Positions 1,972-20,175 of a stretch of 32,217 nt of DNA are shown here, piece after piece; the stretch's first letter is position 1, and each line of letters opens with the position of its first letter. The position numbers were made by a program, and so were the translations under genes. Source of the stretch: Desulfobacteraceae bacterium (GTDB lineage: Bacteria > Desulfobacterota > DSM-4660 > Desulfatiglandales > Desulfatiglandaceae); NCBI GenBank assembly GCA_030613055.1, contig JAUWMR010000051.1, forward strand, positions 1 through 32,217. The letters are read 5' to 3'. The notes beneath the pieces are model-generated. The model ran no database searches, was not told the origin of the DNA, and saw only the letters and a list, made by a program, of their open reading frames with translations.

Positions 1972-2715
1972 TTATTCCTCCACCGGCCAATAGTGAGGGA
2001 GTAGAGAAAGAATTTGTTCTGCAAAGCTTGTTATACGATATTTTGATTCAGCAATATGTTCTTTATTCGTGTTGGCTGATATGCGAATAAATGCGCCGTC
2101 ATTCCTGTTATGAAATACCCTGCCAAAAAACCTCGTTATATTCATTTGCATGCCGGTTGCCAGGATTTTGTTACGATCAGACTGATACCAGTGAAGTACA
2201 ACATCATAAAGCAGCCCTTTTTGTGATAGGATATAATTTACCTCCACACCATTTGGATAATAATCCGACTTTAGCTTGACCTTATATGCCTGAATTAGGC
2301 CCCAACCGGCGCCAGTAAAGCAGGCATATGGATTGTGCGGAGTGCGGCCACCCTTGGCTGTTCCGTAATAACCGATATACAGATGGACCTGTTGGCCTTT
2401 TTCTGATCGATAATGACGGTAGACGTGCTTGTCCGCATTGAGCTCCTTGTATACAGACTCATCAAAAGAGTCTTCTGTTGCTTTATAACCAAGGATTTCC
2501 ATGGGAAGATTTTCCAGATTCGTTGCAATAACTACGGGCTCTCCACGCCTGGAGATGAAGAGTACAGCAGCGATTGTTGCTAAGAGTATAATTAGTGCAA
2601 CATAAAAAGGGCGAATTGGGTTTGTTGGGTTCGTTGGGTTTGTTGGGTTTGTTGGGTTCATTGAGTTTGTTGAGTTTGTTGGGTTATTTGGGTTATTTGG
2701 GTTCATTGAGTTCAT
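1972..2715 (-). CDS. epsI: EpsI-family exosortase-associated protein with repeat-coded N-terminal tail
   Basis: After an Asn/Pro-rich tail there is one membrane helix (FYVALIILLATIAAVLFI). A periplasmic domain follows with EILGYKATED, NPYACFTGAGW (normally H-P-x-x-C-x-x-x-x-GW) and YDVVLHWYQ. This is the EpsI/DUF3485 pattern; members lie beside or fused to exosortases and support EPS export or PEP-CTERM processing. The N-terminus is encoded by a 9-bp repeat array. The frame opens at 2796 (TTG), with ATGs at 2772, 2715 and 2706. I chose 2715 because it starts just after the YdcF gene stops (2741), but no start has a recognisable Shine-Dalgarno. The gene is last in the minus-strand EPS run. Confidence 0.85.
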   Translation of the reverse strand: MNSMNPNNPNNPTNSTNSMNPTNPTNPTNPTNPIRPFYVALIILLATIAAVLFISRRGEPVVIATNLENLPMEILGYKATEDSFDESVYKELNADKHVYRHYRSEKGQQVHLYIGYYGTAKGGRTPHNPYACFTGAGWGLIQAYKVKLKSDYYPNGVEVNYILSQKGLLYDVVLHWYQSDRNKILATGMQMNITRFFGRVFHNRNDGAFIRISANTNKEHIAESKYRITSFAEQILSLLPHYWPVEE

Positions 2716-2738
2716 GGGGTTATTTGGGTTTGTTGGGG
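2615..2738 (+). repeat. 9-bp minisatellite array A (in epsI 5' end)
   Basis: About 14 units of GGGTTTGTT with variants (TTC, TTA, GAG, TTAT) read on the plus strand. On the coding strand it gives NPT, NPN, NST and MNP tripeptides and contains all the ATG candidates closest to the mature EpsI sequence. It ends just before the stop codon of the preceding gene at 2741. Confidence 0.95.
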
Positions 2739-2740
2739 TG

Positions 2741-3421
2741 CTAACTACTTGAAGAAACAAGGAAATAATCATATATTTTAAGTTTAAACAATTCAATTAT
2801 GAGTTGTTTAAATGTGTTGACTTCAGATGAACCTTGAACATAGAACCTGACATTACTATTCTTTAAAAAATTCCTGAAACTGATTTTGACCCTGTTAGCA
2901 TGACAGGGACATGAGATCAATATTATGCTCTTGTATCCTCTTTCATTGATGAGCCTGGAGATATATTTAGCTTCTGTCAAGGTGCCAAAAAATCCACTTT
3001 CAATACTTACTGGTTCAATGATTTTATCTGGTATCCCGAGGTTTTTTAGTTTCATAATAGCCCATTCATCGTTTGATAGATTTCTACCAAGCAAGTTTGA
3101 ATATTCCGTTATACCGGGCCTGCTGAGGATCAATATTTTATTACATATCCCTGTATGATAAAGGGTAGCTGCCACCTTAAACTTGAGCTCAAGGCTGGGC
3201 TGGGAACCACCGAGTACATAAATTGCATCAACCACTGTTGATCGGGGTAGTGGATCGATGCTGACCAATTCGCCTTTTATCAAGTGTATTAACTTTTCTC
3301 TAAAATCACCTGAGCCTCCTATTGTCAACCACACTGAGAATGAGATAAGAACAAGAAGAGCACCTATTGAAATCTTTGTTGAATGGTTGAGTAGTTGAGT
3401 AGTTAAGTTATTTTTAGACAT
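2741..3421 (-). CDS. YdcF/SanA-like DUF218 membrane protein
   Basis: A 226-residue protein. One N-terminal membrane helix (IGALLVLISFSVWLTI) is followed by a DUF218/YdcF-type domain: VVDAIYVLGGS, KILILSRPGITEY, GTLTEAKYISRLINERGYKSIILIS and an H-x-x-R pair in CHANRVKISF. Members are implicated in envelope polysaccharide or lipid-carrier metabolism (ElyC, SanA), but chemistry is not settled. The ATG at 3421 has no clear Shine-Dalgarno. The first 15 codons are themselves a degenerate 8-9 bp repeat (GTTGAATG and GTTGAGTA words at 3378-3411), so the true N-terminus is uncertain. It lies between exosortase and EpsI, fitting a role in the same export pathway. Confidence 0.8.
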   Translation of the reverse strand: MSKNNLTTQLLNHSTKISIGALLVLISFSVWLTIGGSGDFREKLIHLIKGELVSIDPLPRSTVVDAIYVLGGSQPSLELKFKVAATLYHTGICNKILILSRPGITEYSNLLGRNLSNDEWAIMKLKNLGIPDKIIEPVSIESGFFGTLTEAKYISRLINERGYKSIILISCPCHANRVKISFRNFLKNSNVRFYVQGSSEVNTFKQLIIELFKLKIYDYFLVSSSS

Positions 3422-3591
3422 TTAAAGGTATTTAGGTCGAAGACTGAAGGCTGAAGACTGAAGCCTGAAGTATATCAATCATCTCTGGGTCTCCCTTTTT
3501 CCCATTCAATCACGCCTTGGCGTGATTCGATGTTCGGTCCGCCGGAGGCGGACAAGTGTTCATTTATTTCAGTAAACCTTTCACCTTCAGT
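3422..3591. repeat. Intergenic low-complexity repeats and two hairpins
   Basis: Between the exosortase and the YdcF-like gene lie a quasi-tandem GAAGACTGAAGGCTGAAG block (about 3438-3471), a CACGCC/GGCGTG palindrome (about 3512-3525) and a GTCCGCC/GGCGGAC hairpin (about 3537-3553). The last resembles the TCCGCC/GGCGGA hairpin near 30430. No gene is visible. Neither hairpin is followed by a T-run, so they do not look like terminators. Confidence 0.6.
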
Positions 3592-4470
3592 CTATCCACC
3601 TGAGTATTTACATTTGTTCAATAATGAGAATTCCAGGAAGAGCAGCACAAATCCAAAGGCAAAAACAGCGAGGCCGGAAAATTCATGAAGAAAGCTTAGG
3701 GCGGGTTTAGCGCCGTAAAAATGTGCAAGAATGCCGGTGCCTGTTACTCTTACGATATTAGCAAAGATAGCCAGGGGAATTGCTGACAAGATGACAACAA
3801 TTCTATTCCGCCAGTGTTTGTCCATCATATAAGCAAAAAGAAAACCTAACATAATAAAAGCAGTCATAGACCGGAGTCCGGAGCAGGCTTCAGCTACTTC
3901 AAGTTGAGTGGTGGCAAAATATAGCATATTTCCTTCGCGATACACTGGGATGGATAGGGCGTGTATGAGAAACATGGATACTTTTGTCGCGAATAACTGA
4001 AGTGGAAACGCTGCTAATCCATAAATAGTAACCGGAACAGGTACCATGAATAAAAGATAAAAAAGGGGGAATTTAATAATAGAAAAGATGGCTTTTCCGA
4101 AATTTGATAGCACAATCCCTGTTAAGCTAAAAACAATCATAGATCTTGAAATAAAGGCCACTGCGCCGGCCAGGCTCAAAACATACAGCAACATGCTTAC
4201 GCACAAGATAATTATACCCCATTTTGAACCAGCGATTGGCGCATTTTTAAGCTTATCCCGCAGTTGCCAGATGAGATAGGCTGAAATAAAGGGTACCAGT
4301 ATCCCGTGAGAGTTATTTGAATGATTGAGCCAGGTAGTAAACAGGTAAGGATAGACTGGGATAAAGGCAATAGCCCATAGTATAAGCAGGACACAAAACT
4401 TCAGTATAGTGTTAGTTGGGTTCATTGGGTTTATTGGGTTTATTGGGTTTATTGGGTTTGTTGGGTTCAT
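3592..4470 (-). CDS. xrtA: Exosortase (PEP-CTERM protein-sorting transpeptidase)
   Basis: A polytopic membrane protein of 292 residues with the exosortase triad: Cys196 in EVAEACSGLRS, Arg241 in FANIVRVTGTG and His262 in LHEFSG. Eight or so membrane helices surround these motifs. By family it recognises the PEP motif plus membrane helix at the C-terminus of exported proteins, cleaves, and passes the product to the surface. The one PEP-CTERM protein in the window starts at 9743. The first about 20 residues (MNPTNPINP...) come from a 9-bp repeat array; ATGs exist at 4470 and 4425, neither with a Shine-Dalgarno. EpsI is a separate protein here. The subtype A assignment is inferred from the associated genes. 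Confidence 0.9.
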   Translation of the reverse strand: MNPTNPINPINPINPMNPTNTILKFCVLLILWAIAFIPVYPYLFTTWLNHSNNSHGILVPFISAYLIWQLRDKLKNAPIAGSKWGIIILCVSMLLYVLSLAGAVAFISRSMIVFSLTGIVLSNFGKAIFSIIKFPLFYLLFMVPVPVTIYGLAAFPLQLFATKVSMFLIHALSIPVYREGNMLYFATTQLEVAEACSGLRSMTAFIMLGFLFAYMMDKHWRNRIVVILSAIPLAIFANIVRVTGTGILAHFYGAKPALSFLHEFSGLAVFAFGFVLLFLEFSLLNKCKYSGG

Positions 4471-4509
4471 TGGGTTTGTTGGGTTTATTGGGTTTGTTGG
4501 GTTTGTTGT
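4411..4509 (+). repeat. 9-bp minisatellite array B (aminotransferase/exosortase junction)
   Basis: Eleven units. A GGGTTTATT unit gives the TAA stop of the aminotransferase at 4485-4487, and a GGGTTCATT unit gives the ATG of the exosortase at 4468-4470. The two genes use different reading frames of the same array: QQT for the upstream gene's tail and NPT/NPI for the downstream gene's head. Confidence 0.95.
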
Positions 4510-5777
4510 GAAATTGATGCTGTGATTTGTGATCTATCATTTTGGGAAACAAAAGGGTGTATCGGTAATGTAATTAGGTTTTTAGAGATTTTATTGGCCA
4601 CAGGAAAATATTTTCCTTTGAAATGCGAGGTTATTTCTTTGATATGATCAATGGAATCGGGGTAAGTGTACATAATTCCGAGACCCAGTCGATGGCTTTG
4701 TTGTACAATCCGTTCTCTCAGTGCATTATTGTCAAATCTAATGGGGTACCGGATCAGATTCGGGAGATTGCTGCTGTTTGAGCAGTAATGATGTATATAT
4801 CCTGATTTTAAGCTTGAGAGCCAGTTTTTTGAATTTTTTTTGCGATCCACTTTTAATCGCTGCAGCTTGTCTTCCCAGCCATTTGCCAGACCTGCCTGGT
4901 AAGGCGACATTTTTGTAATATTGAATGTTGAATCGTATATTGTCGCCCCAAGCCTGAGAAAGGGGATAGATTTGGGAACCCAATAAAGCCCGGGATGAAG
5001 AAAAATGTTCAGCAGGATCGATTTTATGACCAACTTCATCATATCAATCAAGGAATAATCCGAAATCCTGGATAAACGGGCCATTATTCTCTTAGCTATA
5101 TCCTCCCTGTTTGTTAAAACAATTCCTCCTTCCACCGTGGAGAGGGCCTTACCCCGGCCAAGGCTAAAAAAACTGATATCCCCAAGTGTCCCCAGATTTT
5201 TACCATTCCATTCTCCGCCCATTGCCTGGGCCGAGTCTTCCACTATGTTGACCTCTGGGTCACTGATCAATTCACGAAGTCGGTTAATATCAGAAGGAAG
5301 GCCGAAAAGATGGACGGGGATGACAGCAAGAAGGCGGGAGAAGGGTTGATTGGGTTCATTGGGTTCATTGGGTTCATTGGGTTTGTTGGGTTCGTTGGGT
5401 TCGTTGGGTTCGTTGGGTTTGTTGAGTATTTTGGATAACTGATCAAAGTCAAAGTCAAGCGTATCGGGGTTTATGTCGCAGAGTCTCACCTTAAGTCCGG
5501 CGCGGACAATAGCCGAAGGAACGGAGTAGCAAGTAAAGGCAGGGATGAGGACTTCGTCTCTATGTGGATGCATATCGCTTAATGCGCGTAGGACTAAAGT
5601 CAATGCGGCCTTTCCCGATGACAAAAGAAAGCAGTGTTTTATACCAAAATAGGTCTTGAGTTCCTTTTTGAAACGCTCGAGTTCTCGTTGTCCATGGACA
5701 AGGCCCTTTAGTCCTGAAATAATATCTTTTGGATAAATAGGCGATGCCGCAGGGGGGAGTGTTCGATTTAGGCGCAT
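4485..5777 (-). CDS. DegT/DnrJ/EryC1/StrS-family PLP aminotransferase
   Basis: A 430-residue protein of the DegT family, which transaminates keto-sugars for polysaccharide building blocks. Visible landmarks: LLSSGKAALTLVLRAL near residue 52, IPAFTCYSVPSAI near 78, the cofactor-contacting Asp181 and Gln184 in VEDSAQAMGG, and the probable PLP-lysine Lys210 in SFFSLGRGKALSTVEGG. The family usually has SxxxxK here, so the site looks intact. Residues about 119-145 are an in-frame NEP/NKP repeat inserted just before the strand LLAVIPVHLFG. The C-terminus (SQQTQQTQ) also comes from a repeat array. The ATG at 5777 has no Shine-Dalgarno and directly follows array D. Confidence 0.87.
   Translation of the reverse strand: MRLNRTLPPAASPIYPKDIISGLKGLVHGQRELERFKKELKTYFGIKHCFLLSSGKAALTLVLRALSDMHPHRDEVLIPAFTCYSVPSAIVRAGLKVRLCDINPDTLDFDFDQLSKILNKPNEPNEPNEPNKPNEPNEPNEPNQPFSRLLAVIPVHLFGLPSDINRLRELISDPEVNIVEDSAQAMGGEWNGKNLGTLGDISFFSLGRGKALSTVEGGIVLTNREDIAKRIMARLSRISDYSLIDMMKLVIKSILLNIFLHPGLYWVPKSIPFLRLGATIYDSTFNITKMSPYQAGLANGWEDKLQRLKVDRKKNSKNWLSSLKSGYIHHYCSNSSNLPNLIRYPIRFDNNALRERIVQQSHRLGLGIMYTYPDSIDHIKEITSHFKGKYFPVANKISKNLITLPIHPFVSQNDRSQITASISQQTQQTQ
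5345..5428 (+). repeat. 9-bp minisatellite array C (inside aminotransferase)
   Basis: About nine units, mainly GGGTTCATT and GGGTTCGTT. It is read in the frame AAC-GAA-CCC, giving NEP or NKP repeats, a different frame from the NPT reading used in neighbouring genes. It lies wholly inside a coding region with no frame disruption. Confidence 0.95.
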
Positions 5778-5779
5778 AA

Positions 5780-5886
5780 GGGGTTTGTTGGGTTTATTGA
5801 GTTCGTTGGGTTTGTTGGGTTTGTTGGGGTTGTTGGGTTTGTTGAGTTAGTTGGGTTAATTGGGTTGATTGGGTTTGCTGAGTTGA
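5780..5886 (+). repeat. 9-bp minisatellite array D (upstream of aminotransferase)
   Basis: About twelve diverged units between the aminotransferase ATG (5777) and the four-helix-bundle gene. The left part is non-coding leader sequence. The right part encodes the last residues (SKPNQPN) and the TAA stop (5856-5858) of the four-helix-bundle protein. Confidence 0.93.
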
Positions 5887-6245
5887 GAGTTCAAATATTT
5901 GATAAATCCTGAGTTCATCCTGGATACTTTTTCAGCCTGGTTATAAATTTGTTCGAAAAGTTCTTTTGATATGTATTTCTGATCAAGGGCGACATATAGC
6001 TGGCTTTGCACTTCTGCCGCAGAGCTTTTTGATATGAATAGGTATTGGATAAACTCTTTATTACTTTTACGAGAGAACCCCTCCGCAATATTACTCATTG
6101 AAGATACGGCAGCCCCCTGAATTTGATTCACGAGACGAAAATCCTTTTGGAATCGTCCACTTGCACTAATAGCATCGTATACAAGCTTAACAAGCTCGCG
6201 AGATTCCTTCCATGCGTCAATATCTTCAAAACGCTTTATTGTCAT
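5856..6245 (-). CDS. Four-helix-bundle protein (S23/23S-rRNA-IVS-like)
   Basis: 129 residues beginning MTIKRFEDIDAWKESRELVKLVYDAI and containing RLVNQIQGAAVSSMSNIAEGFSRKSNKEFIQYLFISKSSAAE. This is the signature of the TIGR02436-type four-helix-bundle family, first seen in rRNA intervening sequences. Members are also common as stray genes in environmental genomes; their function is unknown. The ATG at 6245 has AAAGGA 6 nt upstream, one of the few good ribosome sites in this part. The C-terminus ends in repeat-coded SKPNQPN. A role in polysaccharide synthesis is not evident; its placement between FemAB-like and aminotransferase genes may be a past insertion. Confidence 0.85.
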   Translation of the reverse strand: MTIKRFEDIDAWKESRELVKLVYDAISASGRFQKDFRLVNQIQGAAVSSMSNIAEGFSRKSNKEFIQYLFISKSSAAEVQSQLYVALDQKYISKELFEQIYNQAEKVSRMNSGFIKYLNSQLSKPNQPN

Positions 6246-6258
6246 AGAAGTCCTTTTA

Positions 6259-6300
6259 ACACAACAAACTCAATAAACTCAATAAACTCAATAAACTCTA
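6259..6300 (-). repeat. 9-bp minisatellite array E (inverted, intergenic)
   Basis: About 4.5 units of AATAAACTC on the plus strand, the opposite orientation to the other seven arrays. It fills the gap between the FemAB-like stop (6301) and the leader of the four-helix gene and codes for nothing. It carries GAG instead of GGG, so it lacks the G3 runs of the others. Confidence 0.85.
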
Positions 6301-7515
6301 TTATAGTCCAATATGTTTTCTGATCATGGGTCCTATGATTTTTGTTATTTGGACCGGGATTTTCTGCCAGACGGAAATGGCCTTATCAAATTTCGATCTT
6401 TCGGGGATGTCTGCCTTCATCGGAGCGCCATATAAAGAAATATAATGCCAATGCAGAGGGAAAGGTTTCGCGCCCCATTGTTCCTTAAACCTGTAGGTCC
6501 CCTCTCCAGGGGAGGATCGACCAAAGTCGAAGAATGAAAAGCCGTTATCGCAGGCATATTTGAGCATAGTCCAATAGAGGAGCATATTTGGGCTGAGACG
6601 GCTGTATTCTTGGAGGGCTGAAGCCCATGGGTTCTCAAGAGTATCTTTGAAACCGGCGATCAGGCTGCAGGCCACTGGCTGCTCAGCTTTATAGACAATT
6701 ATTATATTTACTGACTTAGAGAATTTATCAAGAATGCCTCTGATAAATCGCTTTGAATGGACCGGAGAACCCAGATCTCTCATATTTCTGGAAAAGACAT
6801 TGTAGAAAGCGTCAACTAATTCACGACCGCCTATTTTTGAGTGAAGCCCTTCTTTTATTGGTTTTTTTATCTGGCTTCTCAGTTTGGACTTGAAGGATTT
6901 CATCAATACGTCAGAGGACCGAGGGAGTTCAAGAAGCATGCGAACCTTATGAGACTTTGTCTCATGGGTTATTGGGTTTGTTGGGTTTATTGGGTTTATT
7001 GGGTTTATTGGGTTTGTTGGGTTTGTTGGGTTTGTTGGGTTTGTTGAGTTAGTTGGGTTCGTTGGGTTTATTGGGTGTGTTGGGTTTGTTGAGTTTGTTG
7101 GGTTGAGGCATGATAGGGGTTGGGTATGGCGAAGTTCGATTTGCCTTGCTCCTAATTTCTGTCCAATCTTTACAGCCTCAGACAGGATCAGCATTTCAGT
7201 TTCATTATCATTGGCTATAATACCTCCTAAATCAAAAAAAGGCATAGAGATAAGGCTGTTACCAAAGAGAAAGTGCTTGAGATGGACCAGGGGTAGAATG
7301 CCGACAATTGGGTTTGTTGGGTTTGTTGGGTTATTTGGGTTTGTGGGGTTTGTTGGGTTTATTGCTATAAGGTAATATGTTTTGTGGCCGTATGCATTTT
7401 CAATAACATCTTTCCATCCGGATAAATGATACAGGGTGGATAGAGGATGTGCGTTTACATAGGCATCCCATGCAAGGGGATCAGTCGATTGGATTACTTT
7501 AATCTTAGAGGACAA
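6301..7515 (-). CDS. FemAB-like protein of the exosortase/PEP-CTERM system
   Basis: A GNAT-fold FemAB-type protein: WDAYVNAHPLSTLYHLSGWKDVIENAYGH at the start, GILPLVHLKHFLFG, SMPFFDLGG, ELRHTQPL, and KSHKVRMLLELP. A second acyltransferase-like half ends in FFDFGRSSPGEGTYRFKEQWGAKPFPLHW. This matches the FemAB-related family found in XrtA loci (TIGR03019-like), thought to attach an amino acid to an envelope substrate. Two in-frame NPT insertions lie at about residues 52-69 and 137-182, in loops between conserved strands. No ATG start exists: the frame opens at a TTG (7551) within a dispersed repeat, and I chose the TTG at 7515 as closest to the conserved start. The stop at 6301 abuts array E. 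Confidence 0.85.
   Translation of the reverse strand: MSSKIKVIQSTDPLAWDAYVNAHPLSTLYHLSGWKDVIENAYGHKTYYLIAINPTNPTNPNNPTNPTNPIVGILPLVHLKHFLFGNSLISMPFFDLGGIIANDNETEMLILSEAVKIGQKLGARQIELRHTQPLSCLNPTNSTNPTHPINPTNPTNSTNPTNPTNPTNPINPINPINPTNPITHETKSHKVRMLLELPRSSDVLMKSFKSKLRSQIKKPIKEGLHSKIGGRELVDAFYNVFSRNMRDLGSPVHSKRFIRGILDKFSKSVNIIIVYKAEQPVACSLIAGFKDTLENPWASALQEYSRLSPNMLLYWTMLKYACDNGFSFFDFGRSSPGEGTYRFKEQWGAKPFPLHWHYISLYGAPMKADIPERSKFDKAISVWQKIPVQITKIIGPMIRKHIGL
6965..7106 (+). repeat. 9-bp minisatellite array F (inside FemAB-like gene)
   Basis: The longest array, nearly 16 units, read as NPT/NPI/NST. It sits between RHTQPLSC and THETKSHKVRMLLELP of the FemAB-like protein, which are close together in ordinary members. 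It remains in frame over its whole length. Confidence 0.95.
7306..7363 (+). repeat. 9-bp minisatellite array G (inside FemAB-like gene)
   Basis: About six units read as NPT/NPN between KTYYLIA and IVGILPLVHLK of the FemAB-like protein, where relatives carry a short turn. It is a second, independent array in the same gene. Confidence 0.95.
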
Positions 7516-7862
7516 TTTTAATATAGCCGCAAAAAGGCACAAAATACACAAAAAGAAGAATTTGCATGTAGTAATTTCAATTAGTTATGGGCAACAGATA
7601 CATGGAGCTGGATATTTTACAGGACAATCAATTTTGATATAGCCGTAAAAAGTCATTTTAACGACTGAATACCCGCTGTAGTTTATCCCGCACTTGATGC
7701 GGGGCGGGTATGACGGCCTTGGAGACTCTTTACGAAGCCGTCAAGTTTGATGGTCTTGTAAAAAGTCAGTTAAAGAAATTCCTCTGTCTGTAAACTATTG
7801 ATTTTGTTAAATGCGATTTTAAAATTTTACGCTTTTTGCGCCTTTTTGCGGCTATATCAAGT
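7509..7862. repeat. Composite dispersed-repeat element between deacetylase and FemAB-like genes
   Basis: A roughly 36-bp sequence containing ATATAGCCGCAAAAAGGC occurs at about 7524-7555. It recurs as a direct diverged copy at 7635-7654 (ATATAGCCGTAAAAAGTC) and inverted at 7826-7860. Within the element lies a module at 7676-7748 (CTGTAGTTTATCCCGCACTT, a GCGGGGCGGG block, CCTTGGAGACT, CGAAGCC). Parts of that module recur at 13822-13854 and 30342-30389. The inverted ends give it a MITE-like shape. It supplies the TAG stop of the deacetylase (7852-7854) and the first possible start of the FemAB-like frame. No gene is visible between 7552 and 7851. Confidence 0.75.
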
Positions 7863-8760
7863 TTAATAGCTCAAGATAATGGTGGCAGGTGATGAATCGA
7901 TATTCTTTGAAATGCTCAAGGAACTTCGACAATTTATTATATGTCCTATTTAAATTAACATAGTGCCTGAACCTGGACAGGGCCGGAGCTCCGGTTACCT
8001 TAGGCTGTTCAGGATCGATTTCCCAGGGATGGGTATAGAACAGGTAGGCTGTTTCTCTTTTGAGTATAAGCTGAACACCTAAACAAAAAATATAAAAGGG
8101 AATCAAACGGAAATATCCTCCCCCTCCCCATGGCAATATTAATTTCCCAAGCTTGATATTACTGATCGGAAGTTCATAAAATGTTTTTGAAATACGCGCT
8201 GCAATTCCTTTTATTGTGTATTGAGACAGGTCCAAATGACCATAACGCTGATTCATCGCAAATGAATTGTAACTGGAATCGTAGATGTAACCACTTTTTT
8301 CAATGGCTTTTAACATGAAATGATTAACGAAAAAATTAGGAGCACGGTATCCATAGACTCTGTCCCCGGTGATATCCTCCAGGAGCTTTTTGCTGTCAGC
8401 TATATCTTTTTCAAAATTATCGGAAGTTAGATCATTAGCCAGATTGTGGTTATAACCATGAGACGCCACTTCATGTCCTCGGGAATGTATTTCGCGCACC
8501 AGATTGGGGAGGCGCTCGGCGATCCAGCCAAGGACAAAGAAGGTGGCGTTTGGGTTTGTTGGGTTTGTTGAGTTTGTTGGGTTTGTTGGGTTTGTTGGGT
8601 TTGTTGGGTTTATTGAGTCGAGGAGGTCGAGGATACGGTGAATATTTTTTTCAACCCGCAATTCACATGATGACCAGGATGAGAAGGGGATACATTGCCT
8701 GAGATTTTCGACCTGAAACCAGTCCTCTACATCAACCGTTATGATAAGGGTATGGCTCAT
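7852..8760 (-). CDS. Polysaccharide deacetylase (PEP-CTERM locus type, with DUF3473-like C-terminus)
   Basis: A NodB-type carbohydrate esterase of 302 residues. It shows TVDVEDWFQVENL with the catalytic/metal aspartates Asp10 and Asp13, SHGYNHNLAND with metal-binding His101 and His105, GYRAPNFF, and the C-terminal FYTHPWEIDPEQP motif with GAPALSRFRHYVNLNRT. The last part is the DUF3473 extension typical of deacetylases in exosortase/EPS loci. It would remove acetyl groups from N-acetylated polysaccharide. No signal peptide is seen. Residues 50-70 are an NPT repeat exactly where relatives have a short turn before ATFFVLGW. The ATG at 8760 has a weak Shine-Dalgarno. The TAG stop lies within a dispersed repeat. 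Confidence 0.93.
   Translation of the reverse strand: MSHTLIITVDVEDWFQVENLRQCIPFSSWSSCELRVEKNIHRILDLLDSINPTNPTNPTNPTNSTNPTNPNATFFVLGWIAERLPNLVREIHSRGHEVASHGYNHNLANDLTSDNFEKDIADSKKLLEDITGDRVYGYRAPNFFVNHFMLKAIEKSGYIYDSSYNSFAMNQRYGHLDLSQYTIKGIAARISKTFYELPISNIKLGKLILPWGGGGYFRLIPFYIFCLGVQLILKRETAYLFYTHPWEIDPEQPKVTGAPALSRFRHYVNLNRTYNKLSKFLEHFKEYRFITCHHYLELLNLI
8549..8617 (+). repeat. 9-bp minisatellite array H (inside deacetylase)
   Basis: About 7.5 units read as NPT with one NST unit, between the helix HRILDLLDS and the strand NATFFVLGW. In family members this loop is only a few residues long (of the type hGVkATFF). This is the most clear-cut loop insertion in the window and the rightmost array. 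Confidence 0.95.
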
Positions 8761-13976: not shown

Positions 13977-15431
13977 TCATCTATATCCCGTCAGAACGTG
14001 AAGCTCGACCCTCCGGTTTAAGGCCCTGCATGCCTCATTTCTGCACGAAACCTTGGGCCTGGTTTTGCCGTATCCCACAGCGGTGAGGCGTTCCTCCTCA
14101 ATGCCTTTTTGCGCTAAATAATACATCACGGCCCTGGCGCGATTTTCGGAAAGAGTTTGATTGTACTGGGCGCTGCCTAAATTGCAGGTGTGGCCCTGAA
14201 CCTCAATCCTCAAATAGGGATTCCGCTTTATCACGGCAACGACTTTGTTGAGAACATGATAATATTTTGGCTTAATATTATGTTTGTTAAAATCAAACAG
14301 GGTATCCCCGAGAACCCAGCATCCGCGTGAATCCACCCGGGCTCCTTCCGGTGTATCCGGGCACTGGTCTATGTAGTCGGGTACACCGTCTCTGTCTGAG
14401 TCTAAAGGACACCCTCTACTGTCAACTTTTACTCCTCTTGGTGTTCCAGGGCATTTATCCAGGTAGTCGGGTACACCGTCTCTGTCTGAGTCTAAAGGAC
14501 ATCCCCTGCTGTCAACCTTCACGCCTTTTGGTGTATCCGGGCATTTATCCAGGTAGTCGGGCACGCCGTCGCCGTCTGGGTCTAACGGGCACCCTCTGCT
14601 GTCAACTTTCACTCCTTTGGGTGTTCCGGGACACTTATCCGGGCCATCCGGTACGCCGTCGCCGTCTGAATCTAAAGGACATCCCTTGCTGTCAACCCTT
14701 ACGCCTTTGGGCGTATCAGGGCACTTATCCAGGTAGTCGGGCACGCCGTCGCCGTCTGAATCCGGGGGACATCCCCTTTCGTCAACTTCTATGCCTTGAG
14801 GCGTTCCAGGGCATAGGTCTTTATCATCGGGTACGGTGTCACAATCCGAATCTTTTGGAACAACCGGACATGTAAGGTAGTTGCGGATATTGTCATCGTC
14901 AAACATGGCAGCCACCGCCTTTGACACCGCGCCGTCGCAGCAATCATATAGATCGGTGGACTTGTTGGCTTTTTTAAAGTTTACGGTATATCCGTCACCT
15001 GTCGTTACCCTTAGATTCAATTTGCATTCAACAGTCCAGAATCTCCAGAAAAGTTCTGCTTGTGTAATGGAGAGCTTTAGTATTTTAGGCGCGCCTTTAG
15101 TAACTTTAACCCCCCTTTTTTTCAGCTCGGTCTTAAGCACGCCAGTCGCTGTCTCTGTCCATTTCCTTAGATTTCCCCACCATTTGTGAGTATAAGAACC
15201 AATAGGTATTATGTCTTCATTGTCCTGAACATTTACGATGGTGACGAGTTTGCAGATACTGAACTCCGGTTTCACGAACATTCCCTGTTCTATTGGAATC
15301 TGTCTGGGGATATAGAAGCGCTGTGTATAATCGGGTTCATAGTAGATCCGATGTCCACTGCAGCCCGAAAAGATGAGCAGAACGAACAGAAAAAAGATGA
15401 TGCTCATTATAGATAATATTGATCTTGACAT
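13977..15431 (-). CDS. OmpA-family lipoprotein with six thrombospondin type 3 repeats
   Basis: 484 residues. A lipoprotein signal (FFLFVLLIFSGC) precedes a roughly 170-residue domain of unknown type (HKWWGNLRKWTETATGVLKTEL). Six tandem 30-residue TSP3 Ca-binding repeats follow (DSDGDGVPDYLDKCPDTPKG and variants). A C-terminal OmpA peptidoglycan-binding domain ends in ALNRRVELHV. The protein should tether the outer membrane to the wall through a rigid Ca-stabilised stalk. In the OmpA motif usually written GHTDN, the Asp that contacts diaminopimelate is Cys (GHTCNLGS). The paralogue at 26728-27579 has the same change. The start is supported by GCGAGG 6 nt upstream. Confidence 0.92.
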   Translation of the reverse strand: MSRSILSIMSIIFFLFVLLIFSGCSGHRIYYEPDYTQRFYIPRQIPIEQGMFVKPEFSICKLVTIVNVQDNEDIIPIGSYTHKWWGNLRKWTETATGVLKTELKKRGVKVTKGAPKILKLSITQAELFWRFWTVECKLNLRVTTGDGYTVNFKKANKSTDLYDCCDGAVSKAVAAMFDDDNIRNYLTCPVVPKDSDCDTVPDDKDLCPGTPQGIEVDERGCPPDSDGDGVPDYLDKCPDTPKGVRVDSKGCPLDSDGDGVPDGPDKCPGTPKGVKVDSRGCPLDPDGDGVPDYLDKCPDTPKGVKVDSRGCPLDSDRDGVPDYLDKCPGTPRGVKVDSRGCPLDSDRDGVPDYIDQCPDTPEGARVDSRGCWVLGDTLFDFNKHNIKPKYYHVLNKVVAVIKRNPYLRIEVQGHTCNLGSAQYNQTLSENRARAVMYYLAQKGIEEERLTAVGYGKTRPKVSCRNEACRALNRRVELHVLTGYR

Positions 15432-19510: not shown

Positions 19511-20175
19511 GTTACCAAGTCCTTACAATAGGTGTTTCTTCAAGAAAGATCATATCCTGCAAAACCCTGTCCTTTTGAGCCATGATTCATTGTCCAGACT
19601 TCATACAAGTTATTGTGGTAGTTGTCAAAATACAATCAATATATTGCATAACTGGCATGTATGGATGAAATTAGGGGCTTCGCCCCAATTGAAAAGTCGA
19701 AGATCCCGACTTTAGCGGGACTGGAATGATGGAATAATAGGTTGAAATAGTGTTAGAGCCTGCCCGCCGTTTTTCTGGCGGGTCTGGCAGGCCTTTTTGC
19801 GGCCTCATCAAACGTAAATGACTTGAAATTTTCCTTCGTCATGTTGATCTCTTGTGTTAAAGTTGCACTTAAGGGTCTTGCCCCAATGGGAATGTTGAAG
19901 ATTCCGTCTTTAGCCTTTAGCCTTGTGCCTTACGTATATAAATATTACAACGCAACTCAACATGCTGGGGCAACGAATATCCAATGTCCAATATCCAATG
20001 ACCAATATCCATCGAAAAACTTGAGAATTGGACATTGAACATTCAATATTGGATATTTTGTATCTGCACAAAAAATTAGGGTAAATCCCTTGCGAAGGCG
20101 GGAATCCAGGAGTTGTTACCCTGATTTATTGAGATGTTACATTCCAACTGACCAGGCAATGAGAGGAACAACCGT
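19511..20175. other. Divergent intergenic region rich in dispersed repeats
   Basis: About 665 bp without a supported gene. It holds a GGGGCTTCGCCCC hairpin (19674-19686) and a long hairpin with arms GCCTGCCCGCC and GGCGGG-TCT-GGCAGGC (19758-19792) followed by CTTTTT. Related blocks near 19680-19720 and 19875-19920 share GAAGAT-CCG-CTTTAGC. A palindromic cluster of AATATCCAAT words lies at 19975-20057. The PrsT-like gene's promoter must lie here, but I found no convincing -35/-10 pair. Confidence 0.5.
19975..20057. repeat. AATATCCAAT quasi-tandem palindromic repeat
   Basis: Left arm: repeated AATATCCAATGTCC/ATATCCAATGACC words (19975-20010). Right arm, inverted: GAATTGGACATTGAACATTC and AATATTGGATATT (20025-20057). 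From memory, translated forms of this kind of repeat (SNIQYPISNDQ-like peptides) recur in spacers of many uncultured bacterial genomes. It belongs to neither flanking gene. Confidence 0.7.

Follow-up and report, generated by a model that had tools for sequence, protein, structure and literature searches.

Tandem 9-bp repeats in an exopolysaccharide gene cluster and their probable origin from an S23/IVP repeat element

Introduction

The intervening sequences (IVS) of 23S rRNA genes are sporadic, horizontally spread elements of about 430-450 bp, whose complementary borders form an RNA stem-loop (PMC4990558). In the REP/RAYT system (repetitive extragenic palindromes and REP-associated tyrosine transposases; REPIN), the gene lies between two inverted repeats which co-vary with it, and inverted copies lacking the gene are found as well (PMC2817692). 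G-rich heptamer repeats have been described in Xanthomonas (GGGAATC) and Nostoc (GGGGATT), with 70 and 75 convergent GGGAATC pairs in two Xanthomonas genomes; S23 or IVP is not mentioned in that paper (PMC4692102). The tandem repeats of Borgs are in-frame repeats which give disordered stretches in surface-related proteins (PMC9879509). Here, we report the analysis of a 32,217-bp contig of a Desulfobacteraceae bacterium (JAUWMR010000051.1), in which a 9-bp tandem repeat brackets a gene of the S23/IVP (four helix bundle) family and enters genes of an exopolysaccharide (EPS)/exosortase cluster.

Two further kinds of repeats are comparable. The short tandemly repeated repetitive sequences of cyanobacteria (STRRs) are short repeats similar to the G-rich heptamers, and the Rickettsia palindromic elements are non-coding repeats inserted in frame into unrelated genes. 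A prior link between IVP/four-helix genes and tandem repeats was not found in the openly licensed literature, and priority is uncertain.

Results

An IVP gene bracketed by inverted arrays

The window, i.e. the whole stretch of DNA that was analysed, is the complete contig C44 (32,217 bp) of the draft assembly G000 (4,260,235 bases in 97 contigs). When Tandem Repeats Finder was combined with a unit scan, about 75 TTGGGTTYR-like units were detected in eight arrays spanning 2616-8612. Seven of the eight are on the plus strand and one is inverted. This inverted array and one of the others bracket the IVP gene, and the cassette is composed as follows.

5856-6245, minus strand: IVP/S23/four helix bundle gene, 129 aa (PF05635, 4.4e-31; TIGR02436, 2.4e-29)
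6256-6300, minus strand: inverted 9-bp array of 5 units, which forms the 5' arm of the cassette; intergenic, starting at the FemAB stop codon
5779-5877, plus strand: 9-bp array of 11 units, which forms the 3' arm of the cassette; this arm is C-rich when read on the coding strand of IVP

The 3' arm codes just for the C-terminal tail and the stop codon of IVP, and finishes immediately before the ATG of the next gene, an aminotransferase. The nearest solved structure to the window IVP is 2gsc (XCC0516). The predicted fold of the cassette transcript closes with an end-to-end stem formed by both arrays (z = -3.1), and a transcript stem is also predicted for a 7-bp IVP element (z = -7.4). Concerning a location in rRNA, no Rfam match was obtained in the window or around three dispersed IVP copies. 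The Pfam search found only 23S_rRNA_IVP, with no Y1/HUH tyrosine transposase partner and no transposase in the element.

Brackets around IVP genes in other genomes

Some two dozen IVP matches were obtained in G000, and many of these are fragments. In this genome and its relatives, IVP genes lie between inverted tandem arrays, the unit being different at each locus. The bracket was scored by local alignment of the upstream flank with the reverse complement of the downstream flank. Swapped partners were used as controls and, because near-duplicate elements inflated these raw scores, 246 open reading frames (ORFs) located more than 1 kb from any IVP were added. In a first set of 129-132 IVPs, the median arm-to-arm score was 21, versus 10 for the swapped partners and 10 for the control ORFs, and 85% of the IVPs scored above the control 95th percentile (13.8; p = 5e-40). 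The bracket was also present in 26 of 28 IVPs of Gammaproteobacteria (local controls: only 10), in all 30 IVPs of the family of genome G480, and in 8/8 IVPs on plasmids of Nostoc, Calothrix, Geminocystis, Stanieria and Riemerella.

When 215 non-redundant IVPs from several phyla were considered, 88% exceeded the control 95th percentile. The upstream arm was G-rich in 160 of them and C-rich in 10, and the period of the unit was 7 in 118, 9 in 11 and 8 in 10. Each unit stays local to its own IVP locus. The S23/IVP repeat element is a mobile unit of some 450-520 bp, in which a small four-helix-bundle gene is placed between inverted arrays of an element-specific short unit, usually of 7 bp and here of 9 bp; on the coding strand, the G-rich arm precedes the gene and the C-rich arm follows it. 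Of the pairs of adjacent, oppositely oriented 9-bp arrays within 800 bp of each other, 29 were convergent and 3 divergent, with a gap below 30 nt in 13 of the 29.

Among 369 gammaproteobacterial genomes in this search, only G480 contained GGGAATC arrays. They bracket its single IVP, the best solved-structure match of which is XCC0516, and GGGAATC-like arms were found at about half of the IVPs of its family.

Two side observations concern these searches. The top-scoring non-IVP controls included genes of the GxxExxY family (PF13366/TIGR04256), whose brackets are made of units of mostly 8-10 bp, such as CACAGAGG, ACAGGATA and CACGAAA (L305-L334; L302:1278-1640; L291:251-640). In G438 (L449), a gammaproteobacterial genome of 1.5 Mb, 11 weak IVP matches were obtained, ten of them on one contig strand with near-identical scores.

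The unit follows the IVP lineage

When the repeat period was mapped on the IVP tree, which has few columns and many unresolved forks, 10 changes were counted, whereas shuffling gave 22.8 on average (minimum 19 in 300 shuffles). The similarity of the units grows with that of the IVPs (Mantel r 0.34, 0/500). TTGGGTTYR arrays were located within 1 kb of 8/8 IVPs sharing at least 60% identity with the window IVP, of 4/25 at 45-60% and of 2/119 below 45%; since this set comes partly from genomes chosen for carrying such an array, the comparison with the remaining IVPs of those genomes outweighs the raw fraction. These IVPs belong to genomes labelled Zixibacteria, Omnitrophota, Binatota, Fischerbacteria, Bipolaricaulota, Desulfobacteraceae or Deltaproteobacteria.

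Mobility and deleted derivatives

A second IVP element of G000, of the 7-bp type and located on contig C80, shares 73-93% identity with elements of six further genomes within its termini, and beyond them the identity is at background (54-61%). As the identity is confined within the termini, bracketed IVP units move as discrete elements. Such a unit with defined ends was established for the C80-type element; for the 9-bp cassette, only presence or absence was seen. A deleted form of the C80-type element was also found.

Approximately 3426-3616, minus strand: deletion derivative of the C80-type (7-bp) IVP element, both termini kept, most of the IVP ORF gone

Its termini match the C80 element at 88% over 43 bp and at 95% over 38 bp, the latter including the last IVP codons. 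In addition, G000 contains, in different places, five copies (95-98% identical) and two end fragments of a degenerate IVP element whose unit is 8 bp long, and these were not in rRNA where tested. They are located at C34:63421-63661 and on C90, C67, C97 and the C58 ends (L369-L375), several of them at contig ends, and a conserved palindrome, TTCTCCAACTAAATTGGAGAAGAACC, was noted downstream of their 3' array. A viral origin of the arrays was considered and rejected, no array being present in the viral contigs of IMG/VR.

Arrays in the host genes

The six other arrays are distributed over the EPS genes that surround the cassette.

2616-2732, plus strand: array of 13 units, N-terminal part of epsI (DUF3485), before the conserved domain
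4416-4505, plus strand: array of 10 units, junction aminotransferase/exosortase
5350-5421, plus strand: array of 8 units, in frame in a DegT-type aminotransferase loop, NEP/NKP frame
6972-7106, plus strand: array of 15 units, in frame in FemAB loop 2, NPT frame
7308-7361, plus strand: array of 6 units, in frame in FemAB loop 1
8550-8612, plus strand: array of 7 units, in frame in a polysaccharide deacetylase loop

The host genes are the following, their start codons being those of the longest ORF.

1972-2796, minus strand: EpsI/DUF3485 protein
3592-4470, minus strand: exosortase A (TIGR03109)
4485-5777, minus strand: DegT/DnrJ/EryC1/StrS aminotransferase
6301-7551, minus strand: XrtA-associated FemAB-like protein (TIGR03019)
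7852-8760, minus strand: XrtA-system polysaccharide deacetylase (TIGR03006)

Only four arrays, i.e. those of the aminotransferase loop, of the two FemAB loops and of the deacetylase loop, are truly internal to a gene. In epsI, the DUF3485 domain covers residues 67-268 and the array is N-terminal to it. The array at 4416-4505 provides both the aminotransferase stop codon (TQQTQ*) and the exosortase ATG (MNPTNP). The NPT frame is used in most cases, NEP/NKP in the aminotransferase loop and TQQ at the aminotransferase C-terminus; variants of the unit yield the exosortase start codon (ATG) and the stop codons of the aminotransferase and IVP, and the frames of the host genes stay intact across the arrays. 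A 9-bp unit preserves the frame at any copy number, whereas the 7-bp units common elsewhere do not. For arrays inside long ORFs, the C-rich strand is the one read in 25 cases (giving NPT, NKP, NEP and the like) and the G-rich strand in 5. The ORFs of the latter look spurious and were not used as evidence.

Dispersal of the repeat over the genome was gauged by searches and 20-kb samples. In the whole assembly, 48 dimer matches with at most 2 mismatches were obtained (2 for the reversed-pattern control), all in the window contig except one weak single match on C43. A 3-unit pattern gave 36 matches versus 0 for its control, and the places listed are all within the window contig. Thus, the eight arrays described in the initial annotation (with roughly 80 units) do exist, and their confinement holds for the 4.26-Mb assembly apart from the C43 match. 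Their assignment to the inside of six genes was right for the four internal arrays, the others being at gene ends or at a junction and, in the case of 6256-6300, inverted and intergenic.

Two other kinds of repeats were seen in the window. Tandem arrays of 7/14 bp at 19976-20011 and 1942-1970 (AATATCCAATGACC; CCTCCAGCCTCTAA) are away from IVP genes, and in an OmpA-like ORF (13977-15431), 90-bp repeats at 14350-14813 encode repeats of the DSDGDGVPDYLDKCP type.

Orthologous clusters

In genome G004, the FemAB/aminotransferase site is empty: 14 bp separate the FemAB stop codon from the aminotransferase start (TAG CCGGGTTTGACTGA ATG). Exactly this site is occupied by the IVP cassette with its inverted arrays in both the window and G065. 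Arrays are located at the same sites of FemAB loops 1 and 2 in the window, G065 and G004, and at the same site of the deacetylase loop in the window, G065 and G045. The homologue in G069 is array-free and its loops are short at those positions, in agreement with an intrusion into surface loops, of the in-frame kind noticed in the initial annotation, and the loops of G070 are polar, yet not made of the TTGGGTTYR repeat. Over its length, FemAB of G065 and G004 is only about 61-63% identical to that of the window, despite which the arrays are shared; they are therefore old and do not reflect a fresh burst. The initial annotation had left the localness of the arrays unexplained. They are indeed local in G000 and, being common to three lineages, this localness is at least partly due to inheritance with the cluster.

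The nearest array-bearing cluster found, that of G065, belongs to another family of the same order. Related genomes also carry TTGGGTTYR arrays, which are often dispersed, as in the relatives G006 and G007. The unit is therefore not private to the locus. Of two genomes with many TTGGGTTYR arrays, G010 (L361, L363, L368) has no IVP and G006 has only distant ones. Concerted evolution of the arrays was considered and dropped, the within-genome similarity (0.62 vs 0.56 at orthologous sites) being too weak to claim it.

Some features of G065 are added here as side observations. Its IVP gene (L355:4220-4497) is split by a small ORF resembling, by eye, a GIY-YIG nuclease, with the 12-bp inverted repeat CCCTGTTAAATA at its ends. 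In its aminotransferase ORF (2543-3967 of L355), the loop which contains the array in the window holds another in-frame repeat, RNPQSAIRNPQSAIR, whose period of 21 bp would fit a heptamer, and QATQATRAT repeats are present in a second loop. These aminotransferase loops are hot loops for unrelated repeats.

Discussion

Taken together, these results make it probable that the window repeats belong to an S23/IVP repeat element and that the arrays of the EPS genes are its one-arm derivatives. For the single arrays in the neighbouring genes, this derivation is inferred. The simplest way for one-arm arrays to spread over a few kb would be template switching, or slipped pairing of homologous arrays, at replication forks; alternatively, they may be remnants after cassette loss. 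Because the unit is 9 bp long, changes in length would remain in frame, and selection would retain the copies found in surface loops or at gene junctions, in the sense giving hydrophilic NPT/NEP/NKP. Inheritance with the cluster would keep the arrays local. By analogy with RAYT acting on REPs, the IVP protein might act in trans on the repeats, and the paired arms might work as a stem, in RNA or DNA, like that of the 23S rRNA IVS. The initial annotation noted neither that one array is inverted nor the bracket around the IVP gene, nor the general IVP brackets with differing units, nor the age of the arrays.

Several observations weigh against this explanation. G004 has loop arrays and no IVP in its cluster; G010 is rich in TTGGGTTYR arrays and has no PF05635 gene, and several further array-bearing genomes gave no IVP match (all draft assemblies). 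Since G010 and these others carry arrays without an IVP match, arrays persist, and perhaps spread, without IVP. A few IVPs with the TTGGGTTYR unit have some upstream arrays that are direct instead of inverted, and neither a target-site duplication nor an insertion motif was established. The unrelated GxxExxY family is bracketed likewise, with 16/21 genes above the control 95th percentile. To our knowledge, no catalytic activity is known for S23/IVP. In Coxiella, the S23/IVP protein may not even be made (PMC4990558). The GxxExxY brackets and the IVP-less arrays of G010 speak in particular against an action of IVP in trans, which is the weaker part of the explanation, and arms able to pair may be common to small mobile genes in general.

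Part of these observations can be accommodated if the arrays are made by slippage and fold-back template switching, the IVP and GxxExxY genes being passengers, with cassettes that tolerate, or benefit from, arms which can always pair, and IVP itself being inert on the repeats. The GxxExxY brackets, the frequent gene-less inverted pairs with a gap below 30 nt (13/29) and the arrays of G010 fit such a passive role. Pure slippage does not predict that unit and period track the IVP lineage even across phyla, nor that the polarity of the arms is nearly fixed (160:10), and we regard this explanation as rather unlikely. It is also conceivable that nothing happened in this genome, cluster and arrays having been transferred horizontally as a block from a lineage with a genome-wide repeat. 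The arrays are on one contig here and dispersed in G006 and G007, and G065, whose array-bearing cluster is the closest one found, belongs to another family of the order, so that we consider such a transfer a serious, if still doubtful, possibility. It accounts for the localness and not for the origin of the arrays or the IVP bracket, and is compatible with the derivation from an IVP element.

The NPT/NEP repeats could instead be useful disordered loops of surface-polysaccharide enzymes, as proposed for amino-acid repeats of Borgs (PMC9879509). The restriction of convincing ORFs to the hydrophilic sense, the loop positions and the use of the same loops across several lineages are in line with this proposal. 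Nevertheless, tolerance accounts for the same facts, three different reading frames are used, arrays at junctions supply stop and start codons, inverted copies are intergenic, and the orthologues of G070 and G069 are devoid of arrays; selection for linkers is, in our opinion, improbable. Finally, the initial annotation had envisaged an assembly artefact or a chimeric contig. The assembly is a draft in 97 contigs, and repeats can be mis-counted from short reads. However, orthologous arrays occupy the same loops in independently assembled genomes and the frames are intact, which makes an artefact extremely improbable.

S23/IVP (four helix bundle) proteins are common and have solved structures, with no known function, and arrays that co-vary with them are a concrete candidate substrate. 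The cassettes are also a candidate source for heptamer repeats that were described without an origin, and the EPS cluster would be a case of mobile simple repeats turning into in-frame protein loops, and even into start and stop codons.

In comparison with known systems, the heptamer repeats resemble the present arrays by their short G-rich units and convergent inverted pairs, and IVPs on Nostoc plasmids and in the family of G480 carry such heptamers; the unit here is of 9 bp and enters coding loops. The GGGAATC arms in G480 and its family suggest, without proving it, that IVP elements are the source of the GGGAATC repeats. Borg repeats are likewise in-frame tandem repeats in surface-related proteins; in the consulted parts of PMC9879509, no inverted bracket or partner gene is seen for them, and here a single unit extends across unrelated genes. 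The likeness to Rickettsia palindromic elements drawn in the initial annotation is valid for the in-frame entry into unrelated genes and stops there: those elements are longer palindromes, and the in-gene copies here are one-strand tandem arrays of 9 bp.

The window cassette shares with the 23S rRNA IVS the S23/IVP family protein, the complementary borders and the predicted terminal stem. Unlike them, it lies between protein genes instead of inside an rRNA gene, its stem arms are tandem 9-bp arrays (7-8 bp elsewhere), and single-arm copies occur in frame within coding genes. As in the REP/RAYT system, IVP genes are flanked by inverted repeats which co-vary with the gene, and gene-less inverted pairs exist; in contrast, IVP is a four-helix bundle and not a tyrosine transposase, and the repeat is a short tandem unit and not a single palindrome. 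As to dispersal of the flanking repeat in the host genome, copies are dispersed in G480 and G007 and only local in G000. On this basis, we tentatively propose that S23/IVP might be the partner proteins of bacteria-wide short tandem-repeat elements with 7-9 bp units and convergent arms, functionally parallel to RAYT/REP without a recognised transposase, of which the Xanthomonas and Nostoc heptamers and the 9-bp coding repeats described here would be derivatives.

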